From Yersinia intermedia (lineage in GTDB: Bacteria > Pseudomonadota > Gammaproteobacteria > Enterobacterales > Enterobacteriaceae), in NCBI RefSeq assembly GCF_900635455.1, contig NZ_LR134116.1, positions 2,728,001-2,792,000 on the forward strand: 64,000 nucleotides of DNA, in the 5' to 3' direction. Every line of letters starts with the position of its first letter. Positions within the stretch are counted from its first letter, which is position 1. The position numbers and the translations under genes are program-made. The notes under the pieces are model-generated. The model searched no databases and was not told the origin of the DNA. It was given only the letters and a program-made list of their open reading frames with translations. Positions 9,205 to 15,078 of the stretch are shown one piece after another.

Positions 9205-9567
9205 ATGGAACGTCACCAGCACCTTTTGTCCGAATATCAACAAATCCTGACACTCAGTGAGCAAATGCTTGCATTAGCCATTGAGGGGAATTGGGATGCG
9301 CTGGTTGATCTCGAAATGACTTACCTTAAAGCGGTAGAAAGCACGGCAAATGTCACTATATCCTCATGCTCATCTCAGGTGTTGCAAGAGCTGTTACGTG
9401 AGAAATTGAGAGCTATATTGGAAAATGAAATAGAAATTAAACGTCTATTACAGTTACGCCTGGATGCACTCAGTGAATTAGTCGGGCAATCAACCCGGCA
9501 GCAAGCTGTTAATAATACTTATGGTCAATTCCCTGATCATGCATTGCTGCTGGGTGAAACACAGTAG
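9205..9567 (+). CDS. fliT: FliD export chaperone and FlhDC antagonist FliT
   Basis: FliT is the FliD-specific chaperone; in Salmonella it also binds FlhC and blocks FlhDC action once FliD has been exported. The 120-residue helical protein ([20 protein letters not shown] near the N-terminus is family-typical) is normal length and ends the fliDST operon. It is the last flagellar gene before the AraC/HD-GYP/AlkA insert. Confidence 0.92.
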
Positions 9568-9682: not shown

Positions 9683-9758
9683 ACAGTAACAATCACTCAT
9701 ATCGAGCTGGCTATTATTCTCACCATTAATCTTTTTCGCTAAAATAGCCAGTTACTGT
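9683..9758 (+). repeat. Nested inverted repeats upstream of the AraC-type gene
   Basis: Two perfect dyads overlap: ACAGTAAC (9683-9690) with GTTACTGT (9751-9758), and inside it CTGGCTATT (9707-9715) with AATAGCCAG (9743-9751). They share a base on the right arm, so the two stems could be alternatives in RNA, or they may be protein binding sites in DNA. They lie 83-158 bases before the regulator gene and 116 bases past fliT. Confidence 0.5.
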
Positions 9759-9840
9759 AAATTTTCTATTAAAATGAGTTGCTACTCTGCCACTCAAAGC
9801 GTAAAGATATTCTCAGGCTAAAATTGTGAAATGAATATCG

Positions 9841-10731
9841 ATGGAACGTACAATTAATTTTTGCCCCGGTGTGGGTAGCTCGGCACATGTTATTCAACAC
9901 ACAGAGCTACTACTCACCTCAGTCTATATTGAGCACCCCTTGCTCATTATGGTTAATCGTGGACACAAGATCATTCGCTGGGATAATCAGGAATGTATTA
10001 TTCAAGCCGGTGAAATAGTTGCGGTGAGCAGTGGCCAAACAGTTGATGTAATTAATGGTTTATCTGACGACGGGCTATTTTTTAGCCACCAACTTCGCTG
10101 TGATCCTCGCTTGATTGCAACCTTTGCCAGTCATCCAGCATCGGCTGGTCTTGGGTATGTTACCGGCGTTATGCCCGTGCGTAATTTGGCACCTGAATTC
10201 ATTAATACTTTTAGCAATACATTTAAAGCAATATCTGATACCGGTGATATTCCACCGACTATCGTCAGGCACCGTATGCTTGAATTGTTGCTTTGGTTGG
10301 CTCAGCGTGGCGTTAAATTCATATTAAATGAAAGTGACTCGTTAAGTGAGCGAGTGCGCCGTTGCCTGGCGGTTGACCCGCACAAAATATGGTCAGCATC
10401 AGAGGTGGCAGATCATATGGCGATGAGTGAAGTTGTATTACGGCGTAAGTTAGCCGCCGAAAAAATATTATTACGTGATTTGATGATTGATGTTCGCATG
10501 ACCAGTGCATTGCGTTTATTGCAAGGTACTGATTGGCCAATTTCATTAATCGCCAGCCAGGTGGGTTACGAAAGTGCATCACGTTTTGCTGAACGTTTCC
10601 GCAAACGTTTTGGCTTTGCTCCTACCGCCATCCGTGGGCATCATCGCTTACATGCAGCAGATATTGACCCACCACCTGAAAGCTATCATCGCTATTTAGG
10701 CCTTCATACGCCTGATTTAGGTTCAATATAA
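9841..10731 (+). CDS. AraC-family transcriptional regulator
   Basis: The C-terminal 100 residues of this 296-residue protein form an AraC/XylS double helix-turn-helix: a first HTH around residues 182-205 (IWSASEVADHMAMSEVVLRR) and a second around 228-262 ending in the family consensus SRFAERFRKRFGFAPTAIR. The N-terminal part looks like a cupin-type sensing domain (IIQAGEIVAVSSGQTVDVI) but no ligand can be inferred. The ATG has only a weak ribosome site. It lies in the same orientation as, and 323 bases ahead of, the HD-GYP gene, so that gene or the neighbouring flagellar genes are plausible targets. I do not recognise a named orthologue. Confidence 0.85.
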   Translation: MERTINFCPGVGSSAHVIQHTELLLTSVYIEHPLLIMVNRGHKIIRWDNQECIIQAGEIVAVSSGQTVDVINGLSDDGLFFSHQLRCDPRLIATFASHPASAGLGYVTGVMPVRNLAPEFINTFSNTFKAISDTGDIPPTIVRHRMLELLLWLAQRGVKFILNESDSLSERVRRCLAVDPHKIWSASEVADHMAMSEVVLRRKLAAEKILLRDLMIDVRMTSALRLLQGTDWPISLIASQVGYESASRFAERFRKRFGFAPTAIRGHHRLHAADIDPPPESYHRYLGLHTPDLGSI

Positions 10732-11054
10732 CCCTTTTTGAGATGATCATTTTGATAATTTCCGATATAGCTTTTTTAACACCTGTCAGTAAAAACCGTA
10801 GCATCCCATTCAAACTCATCCAAGTCCTTTTGACAGTCTAAAACTGGACTGCTAAATACTGCTTTTAGATATTCTGCACGTTAAAACTATTTTTTTCTGA
10901 CTGTGATTAGTTTTTTCATCCAAAATCCTGATGAAAGTTAAAATAAATTATTTAAAATCATACTGTTATGGTAAATACACCCAAAAAGAGGAGAATATGC
11001 TGATTATGTCAGTGCATTCTATGATTATAAGTAATTAAATAATAAACTTCCGGG
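10732..11054. other. AT-rich gap before the HD-GYP gene
   Basis: Contains a 7-bp dyad TTTCATC/GATGAAA (10914-10920 and 10930-10936, 9-nt loop) and the 13-codon ORF at 10997. I found no clear sigma-70 or sigma-28 promoter, although the region is AT-rich enough to hold one. Confidence 0.5.
10997..11038 (+). CDS. Possible 13-residue leader peptide ahead of the HD-GYP gene
   Basis: AGAGGAG lies three bases before ATG CTG ATT ATG..., encoding MLIMSVHSMIISN and stopping 16 bases before the HD-GYP start. The ribosome site is stronger than that of the downstream gene but its spacing is short. It could allow translational coupling or attenuation, or be chance. Confidence 0.3.
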   Translation: MLIMSVHSMIISN

Positions 11055-14024
11055 ATGGCTACGATGCTAAGTAATCTGTTCGGGCTAAAAAACCGCTATC
11101 CTTTACATATTCAAATTGCAGCGCTCTTTACCTTGCTGATCGTCTCAATAGGCACCGTCATTATTATTTTCGGTCATAGCCAACTGACTAAATTGACTGA
11201 AATCAGCACTAATCGTCAGTATCAAAAAACCGGTGAGGCAATTGCTGCAGAATTGGATGCCGTAACGCGGCCAATGATCATGTCGGTTAATATTCTGGCA
11301 AGCATGCAAATCACCGAATTGGCGACCCTTGAACAGCGAATGGCCTTTGTCGGTAAATTTATTGAAATTCTGAATCAGAATAGTTATGCCAGTGCCGTCT
11401 ATAGTGCTTATGCTAACGGTGATTTCTTTATGTTACGGCGTTTGACGGACGCTAACAGGGCATTATTCCATGCCCCTGAAGATGCCAAATGGGTGGTTCA
11501 AAGTAATCGTTTTCTCGATAGTTTACCGGAGAAACGTTTTATTTATTTGAATAAACAGCAGCAGGTCATCGCTGTTATGCCACGAGACAATGATAGCTAC
11601 GACCCACGGCACAGAGATTGGTTTATTCTGGCCGCCGCAAGTCCTACTCTGATTACCTCCCCTATTTATATTTTTAAAGGCACCGGAGAAGTCGGTTTTA
11701 CTTATAGCCGTCAGGCTGAGAATAAACAAGCAATCATTGGATTGGATGTTTCTTTGGCCTCACTTTCGCAATTTTTAATAAAACAAAATCTGCCACCCGG
11801 TAGCCAGGCCATTATTACTAACACTCAGGGTGAAGTTATCGCTAGCCTGCCGAAACCTAAAAATAAGGTGGCAGATAGCACCAATCCAGATCGGCAAATC
11901 CCTGTATTGCAAGCTTTGCTCAATGCTCAAAAAAACAACCAGGCGGGCAGCAAGTTACCAGCAAACAATACTAATCGTAGTATCATGTTTGAAGCACAAA
12001 ATCAGCATTGGTTCGGCTCAGTTGTTGAGATTAATAGCAACGGTAATACCTATCAGTTGATTATTGCCACACCGGCAAGCTATCTGACAGCCGATGCAAA
12101 TTCTATCCGTAATCACTCAACCTTTATCGCATTTATCCTGTTAATGCTCAGTTTGCCATTAGTGTGGTATTTCTCTCGAAAAATATCCAAGCCCCTTATT
12201 CGTCTACGCCAAGACGCTGATTCCATCAGTAACCTCTATTTTGAAGAGCGTGCATTAGAACACTCCATTATTGAGGAAGTTGATGAGCTCCACAAATCAA
12301 TGTCAAAAATGAAGTCAACACTGAAGCAGTTTATTTCGATGGGCAATATGCTGACAGCAGAAAGTAATTTCTCCCGTCAAATGCAAGGGCTACTAAATGA
12401 AACCACGGACATTGCAGCCATGACTGGTGGGATTATTTTCTTGTCAGATAAAGATGAGGGAACCTTTACACCGACGGCATTTCGCTGGGATGGTGAAAAT
12501 ATCCCGGTAGCAGAAATGTCTTCATTACAGATCAAAGAAGATAATCTCGCTACCTTCCTACCCGTACTCGAAGGGAAAACCATTGTAGGAACACTCAATA
12601 AAGATAATTTTTTCAGCCAACTACATGATTTTCTACAGCCTTATCTGCCGCTGCGTTTTATTGCCGTACCCATGAAAACACATGATGATCAATTGCTCGG
12701 ATTCCTGCTGCTATTTAATCCTTATGAGCTGAATGCTGAACGTGAACGCTCAAAAATTCAATTGGTTAATGCCCTCGTGGGCAGTTTATCTGTTTCAGTA
12801 GAAACACAGCGATTATTGCAAGAGCAGAAAAACCTGCTCAACGCCTTTATTGAGCTTATTGCTGGAGCCATCGATGCCAAAAGTGCCTATACCGGTGGAC
12901 ACTGCCAGCGGGTGCCTGAAATAACCAAAATGCTCGCCCGTGCCGCAGTCAATAGTAAAGAGGGGCCTTTCGCCAACTTTACGTTATCAGAAAATGAGTG
13001 GGAAGAGTTACATACAGCCTGCTGGCTACATGATTGTGGCAAAATCACCACGCCAGAGTTTGTGGTCGATAAATCAACAAAATTGGAGCTGATTTATGAT
13101 CGCATCCACGAAATACGCATGCGGTTTGAAGTATTAAAACGTGAGAAAGAAATCGCTTTCTTACGCCAATATGGTGCGGTGAGCGCCAGTGAAGCCGATC
13201 AACGGTTGTTAGCTGATGAATTGCACCAATTAGATGAAGATTTTTACTTTATTGCCAACTGCAATGTCGGTGGCGAGTTTATGTCTGATGAAGCCATTGC
13301 GCGTATTCAGCAAATCGCCGGTTACCGTTGGACTCGCACCTTAGATGATAATGCGGGTATCTCCCATGAAGAGCGAGAACGCAAAGCCAGACAACCCGCT
13401 ACTCCACTGCCAGTACAAGAACCGATGCTGGCGGACAAAGAAGAACATATTATTTACCGCGATAATAAAAATAAACACCCAGAATATTATGACTTTAAAG
13501 TACAGGAACCCGCGTTCCTCTATAACCGAGGTGAAATTTATAACCTCAGTATCCGTCGTGGCACGCTAACCGACGAGGACCGCTATAAAATAAATGAGCA
13601 TATTATGCAGACCATAGTGATGTTAAATAAACTTCCTTTCCCGCGCACCATGGCGAATGTCCCGGTTATTGCCGGTGGGCATCATGAGCGCATGGACGGC
13701 AAAGGATACCCCTATCAGCTCACCTATAAACAAATGAGTATTCCGGTGAGGATGATGGCTATAGCCGATGTATTTGAAGCCCTGACAGCCGCCGACCGCC
13801 CTTATAAACCGGGGAAATTATTATCTGAAGCACTCAATATCATGGTCAATATGGTGAATGAAAATCACCTGGATCGCGAACTGTTCATCTTGTTCCTGCA
13901 ATCAGGTATCTGGCATGAATATGCCGTTGTTCATCTGCAAGCAGATAAAATTGATCCAATTGATATACCTGTATTATTGCAACGAATTGGTCACCAGGAT
14001 ATATCATTGGCGCAGACAGCGTAG
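11055..14024 (+). CDS. Membrane HD-GYP c-di-GMP phosphodiesterase with Cache-type sensor
   Basis: The 989-residue protein probably hydrolyses cyclic di-GMP, which in enterics favours swimming. Visible order: membrane helix about 19-41, periplasmic dCache-like domain (PRHRDWFILAAASPTLITSP near 180), second helix about 355-373, HAMP-like linker about 374-425, GAF-like segment about 440-590, then the HD-GYP domain. The metal pair is H659-D660 (WLHDCGK) and the signature HHERMDGKGYP occupies 876-886, followed by IADVFEALTAADRPYKP. Catalytic residues look intact. HD and HHE are about 216 residues apart, far more than in compact HD-GYP domains, so a large insert lies between. The start could be 11064 (MLSN), which has GGGATGG upstream. 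Confidence 0.88.
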   Translation: MATMLSNLFGLKNRYPLHIQIAALFTLLIVSIGTVIIIFGHSQLTKLTEISTNRQYQKTGEAIAAELDAVTRPMIMSVNILASMQITELATLEQRMAFVGKFIEILNQNSYASAVYSAYANGDFFMLRRLTDANRALFHAPEDAKWVVQSNRFLDSLPEKRFIYLNKQQQVIAVMPRDNDSYDPRHRDWFILAAASPTLITSPIYIFKGTGEVGFTYSRQAENKQAIIGLDVSLASLSQFLIKQNLPPGSQAIITNTQGEVIASLPKPKNKVADSTNPDRQIPVLQALLNAQKNNQAGSKLPANNTNRSIMFEAQNQHWFGSVVEINSNGNTYQLIIATPASYLTADANSIRNHSTFIAFILLMLSLPLVWYFSRKISKPLIRLRQDADSISNLYFEERALEHSIIEEVDELHKSMSKMKSTLKQFISMGNMLTAESNFSRQMQGLLNETTDIAAMTGGIIFLSDKDEGTFTPTAFRWDGENIPVAEMSSLQIKEDNLATFLPVLEGKTIVGTLNKDNFFSQLHDFLQPYLPLRFIAVPMKTHDDQLLGFLLLFNPYELNAERERSKIQLVNALVGSLSVSVETQRLLQEQKNLLNAFIELIAGAIDAKSAYTGGHCQRVPEITKMLARAAVNSKEGPFANFTLSENEWEELHTACWLHDCGKITTPEFVVDKSTKLELIYDRIHEIRMRFEVLKREKEIAFLRQYGAVSASEADQRLLADELHQLDEDFYFIANCNVGGEFMSDEAIARIQQIAGYRWTRTLDDNAGISHEERERKARQPATPLPVQEPMLADKEEHIIYRDNKNKHPEYYDFKVQEPAFLYNRGEIYNLSIRRGTLTDEDRYKINEHIMQTIVMLNKLPFPRTMANVPVIAGGHHERMDGKGYPYQLTYKQMSIPVRMMAIADVFEALTAADRPYKPGKLLSEALNIMVNMVNENHLDRELFILFLQSGIWHEYAVVHLQADKIDPIDIPVLLQRIGHQDISLAQTA

Positions 14025-14154
14025 CCGCAAGGCACGTTATTTATCTGAATGGTATTGCAAAAAACATCGGCAACAAACAGAGTGTGCCACATCAAGAATT
14101 AACGTTATGCTGTTCAGTCGTACATTTTCTCAGCTATATAACAGGGGATCTGGC

Positions 14155-14760
14155 ATGTTCTATCGTTACGGTGAAACAGAAATTAACCATCTCAAACGGC
14201 GCGATAAAAAGATGGCGGCAGCCATCGAGCGATTAGGGATGATAACTCGCCCGCTATCCCCTGATTTGTTTGCTGCATTGATCAGAAATATCGTCGACCA
14301 ACAGATTTCGGTCAAGGCGGCACTAACAGTCAACGCACGGCTGCTCACATTACTGGGCGCAGTGACGCCAATAACTGTTGCCGCTGCCTCTGTAGAGGCG
14401 ATTCAAGGATGCGGTATGACAATGAAGAAAGCGGGATATATTAAAGGCGCTGCGGATGCTGCACTTAATGGCTCGCTGGATTTATCTGCTATATCCCTGC
14501 TGCCCGATAACGACGTTATTGCGCAGCTATCAAACCTCAGTGGTGTCGGCATCTGGACCGCAGAGATGTTATTGATCTCCTCACTTGCCCGACCTGATGT
14601 TGTCAGTTGGGGAGATCTAGCCATCCGGCGCGGCATGATGAATTTATATGGTCATAAAACGCTGCCACGAGAACGTTTTGAACGCTACCGCCGCCGTTAC
14701 ACCCCCTATGGAACAACCGCATCCCTCTATCTATGGGCACTGTCACATGAGACGGTATAA
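14155..14760 (+). CDS. AlkA-like DNA-3-methyladenine glycosylase (HhH-GPD family)
   Basis: Predicted base-excision repair enzyme that removes alkylated bases. The 201-residue product has the helix-hairpin-helix LSGVGIWTAEMLL (about 125-137) and a downstream SWGDLAIRRG whose Asp is the likely catalytic residue, as in AlkA. It lacks the N-terminal domain of E. coli AlkA, so it resembles the short HhH-GPD glycosylases, and no Fe-S cysteine cluster is seen. I chose 14155 because AGGGGA lies eight bases upstream; an in-frame ATG exists at 14107, and the longer open frame overlapping the HD-GYP gene is not needed. It is convergent with fliE (six bases apart) and unrelated to motility by function. 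Confidence 0.82.
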   Translation: MFYRYGETEINHLKRRDKKMAAAIERLGMITRPLSPDLFAALIRNIVDQQISVKAALTVNARLLTLLGAVTPITVAAASVEAIQGCGMTMKKAGYIKGAADAALNGSLDLSAISLLPDNDVIAQLSNLSGVGIWTAEMLLISSLARPDVVSWGDLAIRRGMMNLYGHKTLPRERFERYRRRYTPYGTTASLYLWALSHETV

Positions 14761-14766
14761 GCCGCC

Positions 14767-15078
14767 TTACACCCCCATATTCATTACATCCTGATAAGCC
14801 GCAACCAACTTATTACGAACCTGAATGCCCAGCTGTAAAGATACTGATGACTTTTGCATATCTACCATCACATCATTTAGGCCAACACCGGGGACACCCA
14901 ATTCAAAATTCTGCGCCTGAGTGCGGGCATGCTGCTGGTTTTCACTGATTTTGCCGATGGCCGCTTTCAACTCACTGGCAAAACCGGCCTCTGCTGGCAA
15001 CATTTTTGCCGAACCTGATGCCTGCAACGCAGTGACCTGCAACTGCTGTAAAACCCCTTCAATACCTTGAACAGACAT
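14767..15078 (-). CDS. fliE: Flagellar MS ring-rod junction protein FliE
   Basis: FliE joins the MS ring to the proximal rod and is among the first substrates exported. The start MSVQGIEGVLQQLQVTALQ gives 103 residues, the family length; upstream in-frame starts lack family similarity. The C-terminus (SVSLQLGIQVRNKLVAAYQDVMNM) is diagnostic. It is monocistronic and divergent from fliF. Confidence 0.95.
   Translation of the reverse strand: MSVQGIEGVLQQLQVTALQASGSAKMLPAEAGFASELKAAIGKISENQQHARTQAQNFELGVPGVGLNDVMVDMQKSSVSLQLGIQVRNKLVAAYQDVMNMGV

Follow-up and report, generated by a model that had tools for sequence, protein, structure and literature searches.

PdeH (YhjH), the flagellar EAL phosphodiesterase of enterobacteria, lowers cyclic di-GMP (c-di-GMP) for swimming. 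Phosphodiesterase domains of a different kind, the HD-GYP domains, have been solved in PmGH (4mcw), PA4781 (4r8z) and V-cGAP3 (5z7c), the short names of 4mcw and 5z7c being those we take to apply. Here we describe a locus of Yersinia intermedia in which a predicted enzyme of this second kind stands beside an AraC-family regulator among the flagellar genes. The window, by which we mean the whole 64-kb stretch analyzed (contig NZ_LR134116.1, forward-strand positions 2,728,001 to 2,792,000, of a 4.76-Mb genome), covers the greater part of the flagellar and chemotaxis genes, as judged by eye from its open reading frames (ORFs). Enclosed by fliT and fliE are three plus-strand genes, identified by ORF and profile scans, which encode the AraC-family regulator, the HD-GYP protein and an HhH-GPD DNA glycosylase. 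We favor, with a probability of about 0.55, the reading that the HD-GYP gene supplies the Yersinia flagellar locus with a ligand-gated phosphodiesterase whose removal of c-di-GMP would promote motility. The araC gene is an old resident of the cluster, conserved at its fliDST end.

The HD-GYP domain scores far above its curated cut-off (PF13487, 141.6 bits against 27.2). Its metal ligands and GYP motif, the ligands being assigned from recall and from alignment to 5z7c and 4mcw, are intact and do not vary across all 88 aligned rows. Those two entries are also the domain's PDB sequence matches, with 5z7c the best, and in a predicted structure the domain has the fold of solved HD-GYP domains while the model additionally matches dCache and GAF structures. 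The Yersinia protein thus has the HD, HH and GYP motifs and the fold in common with PmGH, PA4781 and V-cGAP3, but it adds a dCache-HAMP-GAF front end and an insert of ~155 aa between the HD and GYP halves. Residues 679-840 are unmatched against 5z7c and 679-832 against 4mcw, and the insert holds many residues that are invariant among 28 aligned sequences. Because the position of the third-metal glutamate of PmGH, presumably E185, aligns with Tyr612, a two-metal site would be expected. At the other end of the protein, the fold and the YDPR.R.W motif are common to the dCache_1 chemoreceptor domains of PctA, Mlp24 and PscC. However, the acidic residue that follows 'PYV' in PctA, which we take to be part of the amino-acid motif, is replaced by Phe207 in 28 of 28 aligned sequences, leaving that motif incomplete in the Yersinia dCache domain.

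From this architecture, we propose that the periplasmic dCache domain, at residues ~40-350, would bind a small, perhaps amino-acid-like ligand and that the HAMP and GAF domains would pass the signal to the HD-GYP domain, which, given its intact ligands and fold, may hydrolyze c-di-GMP. Lower c-di-GMP would then lift YcgR-type braking and favor swimming over biofilm, a last step suggested by known biology and gene position only. The link to motility is a fair guess drawn from the position of the gene, its fixation in Yersinia and a second case in another genome, G080, described below.

A sequence-only reading of the window had placed a regulator, an HD-GYP protein and a glycosylase between fliT and fliE, with the regulator and phosphodiesterase oriented like fliDST, and ORFs and family profiles confirm both points. 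It had also recognized a membrane HD-GYP protein in the flagellar locus, which the invariant ligands and the occurrence of the gene in 25 of 25 Yersinia genomes bear out. Its coordinates required adjustment. The HD-GYP start moves from 11055, where the ORF opens, to 11064, an ATG common to 22 aligned main-clade rows, and the glycosylase start moves from 13858 to 14155, the open frame from 13858 overlapping the HD-GYP gene. The features of the slot, in window positions, are as follows.

9205..9567, plus strand: fliT, last gene of fliD-fliS-fliT (PF05400, E 2.4e-17; NF007836 above cut-off).
9780..9840, plus strand: conserved non-coding element before araC (alignment A2).
9841..10731, plus strand: AraC-family regulator, 296 aa (HTH_18, E 1.8e-13).
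10732..11063, plus strand: spacer ahead of the HD-GYP gene, containing a separate conserved block at ~10848-10897 (alignment of 25 sequences).
11064..14024, plus strand: membrane dCache-HAMP-GAF-HD-GYP protein, predicted phosphodiesterase, 986 aa (PF13487 (HD_5/HD), E 2.7e-41).
13089..13550, plus strand: ~155-aa insert within the HD-GYP domain, residues ~679-832, unmatched in the 5z7c and 4mcw alignments.
14155..14760, plus strand: HhH-GPD DNA glycosylase, 201 aa (PF00730, E 1.6e-12), starting at a conserved ATG.
14767..15078, minus strand: fliE, convergent, the distal border of the slot (TIGR00205 above cut-off).

The araC and HD-GYP genes lie on the same strand in all 25 Yersinia genomes searched, their matches 256-366 bp apart, and all 16 of the longer Yersinia loci have fliT upstream of araC. 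Compared with five other Yersinia, araC, the HD-GYP gene and the glycosylase gene have ratios of nonsynonymous to synonymous substitution (dN/dS) of ~0.03-0.09, similar to fliD and fliF, and all three are under purifying selection. Given these low ratios and the retention of the pair in every Yersinia genome searched, the three-gene arrangement is more than chance; it is real, conserved and built from known kinds of parts. In a Y. aldovae draft (L046 / L109 and L113), one HD-GYP copy is split over two frames, by sequencing error or decay. A suspected break in genome G168 (presumed Y. ruckeri) was dismissed, as the TGA fits the normal stop of an ORF of 962 aa, as in Y. entomophaga.

The regulator resembles the Rns, CsvR and HilD types of AraC regulator in its C-terminal double helix-turn-helix (HTH) domain, which is above cut-off in two profiles (HTH_18, 51 bits against 33.6; HTH_AraC, 31.2 against 26.6). 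It differs from them in that its matches are confined to the HTH half and its NCBIfam equivalog scores fall far under the cut-offs. The protein does not fall in any of the named equivalog subfamilies compared (QhpR, HilD, HilC and others), with QhpR at 63 bits against 250 and the rest lower, and it does not reach the ExsA_N cut-off (25.8 bits against 27). It is 88% identical to its counterpart in Y. enterocolitica and 78% to that in Y. similis, and its relatives by name include Serratia, Rahnella, Ewingella, Rouxiella and Chimaeribacter. An AraC-family paralogue lies outside the window on the minus strand (L199:3416-4225), 30% identical to the window's regulator and ~3 kb from a GGDEF gene. 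Matches of this paralogue type (28-30%, about E 5e-20 or better) occur in 9 of 25 Yersinia genomes, the window's genome included.

Across a sample of 392 family genomes, 33 contain an AraC match at E <=1e-40, 6 of them Yersinia and 27 others. We examined the loci of 20 of these 27, including a Serratia (G032) and a Chimaeribacter (G103). In 19, the araC orthologue directly follows fliT on the same strand; in the exception, G064, the AraC protein is 41% identical and no other window gene was matched at the locus. Seventeen of the 19 fliT-araC loci have fliE downstream within the same stretch, and none of the 19 has the HD-GYP gene behind araC. All 25 Yersinia genomes searched carry the regulator, and the araC tree groups Yersinia together with middling support (76/98). 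Since araC sits directly behind fliT in all but one of the 20 other genomes and is present in every Yersinia genome searched, we regard it as a resident of the locus, and the word 'inserted', which the sequence-only reading had applied to the whole slot, is wrong for this gene. That reading had called for a comparison of fliT-fliE content across relatives; the comparison divides its claim, as araC is shared with Serratia-type genomes and, in the loci compared, the HD-GYP gene stands behind araC only in Yersinia. Its remark that E. coli differs in this interval holds for the one genome compared, which reads fliT-amyA-yedD-yedE-yedF-yedK-yedL-fliE.

The sequence before araC is itself conserved. 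In alignment A2, made of 17 Yersinia and 10 Serratia-type sequences, some of the latter nearly identical, 28 of 45 positions ahead of the ATG are identical in at least 90% of the 27 rows and fall into two blocks around a variable middle. The blocks form a dyad, GATATTC-N20-GAATATC, that ends one base 5' of the ATG, and they are conserved even though the AraC proteins themselves are just 52-60% identical between the Yersinia and Serratia-type groups. Nine further genomes, whose spacers are shorter (L182-L190), did not show the element. An RNA hairpin was considered and set aside because the fold energies of three sequences were no better than those of shuffles, and an operator, perhaps autoregulatory, is the likelier guess. 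Further upstream, between fliT and araC, an inverted repeat CTGGCTATT ... AATAGCCAG lies at 9707-9751. Both arms co-vary in several Yersinia (GACTATT ... AATAGTC), as expected for a stem or dyad site, and some rows have single-arm changes.

The block in the spacer ahead of the HD-GYP gene is conserved in main-clade Yersinia and was not seen in the entomophaga/nurmii branch of the same alignment. Its presence suggests that the HD-GYP gene is probably transcribed from a promoter of its own and is not obligatorily tied to fliDST. The motif GCNTNNAGATATTCT has three exact matches in the genome, two of them in the araC and HD-GYP spacers, from which two sites the pattern was derived. A short leader ORF at 10997-11035 was rejected as not conserved.

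The third gene of the slot matches the HhH-GPD profile above cut-off (48.2 bits against 26.2, scanned on the longer 300-aa frame), and the protein is not an AlkA equivalog (NF007641, 40.5 bits against 229). Of 25 Yersinia genomes, 22 have it in the slot; the exceptions are Y. entomophaga (G156), Y. nurmii (G163) and G168. A relative of 70% identity lies on another contig in G163, and none was found in G168. The glycosylase looks like a later, well-kept passenger, which is how it had been described from sequence alone.

Several observations weigh against the reading of the HD-GYP protein as a motility enzyme acting on c-di-GMP. The PDB entry that it matches best in sequence, 5z7c, carries the name of a 3'3'-cyclic GMP-AMP (3'3'-cGAMP)-specific enzyme, so the substrate is not settled as c-di-GMP. 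The genome also encodes a PdeH-family protein (410.8 bits against a cut-off of 190 for NF008617, which we take to be the PdeH model). No sigma28 promoter near the scores of clear sites was found before araC or the HD-GYP gene, the best score in either spacer being 9.5 of 14.4 against 12.9-14.4 at the window's clear sites, in a hand-weighted scan and with read-through from fliDST possible. At E <=1e-60, 14 of the 392 family genomes have an HD-GYP match outside Yersinia, three of these covering just the C-terminal part and one being fragmented, and in 11 of the 12 of these loci examined, some cut by contig ends, the orthologue lies away from flagellar structural genes. Genome G357, for instance, has araC in its flagellar locus and the HD-GYP gene ~157 kb distant. 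Beyond Yersinia and G080, 57 loci likewise showed no fli, flg or flh structural gene near the HD-GYP gene; they include Pseudomonas relatives ~40% identical, and the neighbors there matched transporters, receiver domains, chemoreceptors and, weakly, one sigma factor. The enzyme evidently needs no flagellar address. It is quite possible, if short of even odds, that the HD-GYP gene is simply one more piece of cargo in a variable slot, coding for a c-di-GMP phosphodiesterase of general use without a special flagellar tie. The lack of a clear flagellar-class promoter and the non-flagellar orthologues fit this explanation, as does the interval between araC and fliE, which carries unrelated cargo by genus (L172-L190): glycosyltransferase-like and acyltransferase-like genes, a LysR-type regulator, lipoproteins and a large surface protein, all named from ORFs by eye. 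(The glycosyltransferase-like and acyltransferase-like genes are candidates for surface or flagellin modification.) Cargo of this sort would not be expected to stay fixed in 25 of 25 Yersinia while the next gene varies. Moreover, in G080, a reduced genome of 1.6 Mb and the only one of the 12 with the gene beside flagellar structural genes, HD-GYP also directly follows fliT, in the order fliA-fliC-fliD-fliS-fliT-HD-GYP and without araC; two such lineages exceed what a random slot would give, although one shared ancestor explains both. Phylogeny does not decide whether the flagellar place is the older one. In a quick tree and an LG+G4 tree (27 rows) the non-flagellar copies nest inside the flagellar ones, and the latter tree rejects both a Yersinia clade and a Yersinia-plus-G080 clade (approximately unbiased test, p-AU 0.007 for each). 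A mixture-model tree of 22 rows, from which G080 and further long branches were left out, fails to reject the Yersinia clade (p-AU 0.46). As the two models disagree, we dropped the flagellar slot as a proven ancestral address of the gene.

The sequence-only reading had named the AraC protein as a possible controller of the phosphodiesterase. Direct activation of the HD-GYP gene by its neighbor, making a regulator-enzyme switch, would suit their adjacency on one strand, the spacing conserved in 25 of 25 genomes and the conserved blocks in both spacers. We consider it unlikely, as araC stands after fliT without the HD-GYP gene in 19 of 20 other genomes, and so did not enter the locus to control the phosphodiesterase, and as the HD-GYP spacer block was not seen in the entomophaga/nurmii branch. 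A shared operator was likewise rejected: the best 15-mer common to the two spacers (12/15) was reached or exceeded in 237 of 500 shuffles, a chance level that lends the proposed control no sequence support. That the HD-GYP protein senses c-di-GMP or serves as a scaffold, without being an enzyme, seems very improbable. The large insert absent from both aligned solved structures would agree with such a role, and some HD-GYP proteins without an intact HD motif had no effect in the portions available of one study (VC1087, VCA0895; PMC4212101), but here neither the recognized metal ligands nor the GYP loop vary.

A ligand-gated phosphodiesterase that favors motility would join other c-di-GMP genes. 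PdeH would lower c-di-GMP for swimming, as we propose for the HD-GYP protein, though with an EAL fold. The same genome has a YcgR-type (PilZN) protein, 19 GGDEF matches and 13 EAL matches, and against this background the local c-di-GMP switch suggested by the sequence-only reading is a conjecture. Replacement of PdeH by the HD-GYP protein is ruled out by the PdeH-family protein, and with PdeH- and YcgR-type proteins both encoded, the HD-GYP protein is an added c-di-GMP input. Two EAL-only proteins (L196 and L197, 233 and 232 aa) are PdeH-like but under the cut-off (134 and 138 bits against 190).

Published results add two further points to the contrary side. According to the available portions of PMC3084805, deletion or overexpression of Y. 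pestis y2472 left pigmentation and biofilm unchanged. The same source describes y2472 as N-terminally truncated, with HI instead of HD; this truncated HI-GYP enzyme is probably dead, which makes the result weak counter-evidence, and no motility assay of y2472 was found in those portions. Because y2472 / YPTB1709 is the sole HD-GYP entry for Y. pestis and Y. pseudotuberculosis in Table 1 of that paper, it is very probably orthologous to the window's gene, as judged from the list entry and not from sequence. In V. cholerae, single and combined HD-GYP deletions did not alter motility or biofilm, and expression of four HD-GYP genes raised motility (PMC4212101, in part). For Y. enterocolitica, 22 GGDEF/EAL proteins have been counted in a paper from which the term HD-GYP is absent (PMC2266911), and the available portions of two other papers mention HD-GYP in general terms (PMC4773443, PMC4891359). 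At title and abstract level, we found no study of this AraC gene or of a motility role for this HD-GYP protein among the top-ranked results from the open-licence literature.

The AraC regulator, not the enzyme, is the more neglected part of the locus. The word AraC does not appear in the main texts, as far as available, of two large enterobacterial flagellar-locus surveys (PMC7526173, PMC6993521). Tentatively, Yersinia and its relatives may possess a dedicated, undescribed flagellar AraC regulator, governed by a conserved element extending to its start codon, beside which Yersinia would have recruited a ligand-gated HD-GYP protein, letting a periplasmic nutrient signal set flagellar c-di-GMP in parallel to PdeH. 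If the AraC protein truly regulates flagella, a conserved control gene in the fliDST part of the cluster has escaped notice, and should the HD-GYP protein influence motility, Yersinia would possess, in addition to PdeH, a sensor phosphodiesterase encoded at its flagellar locus.
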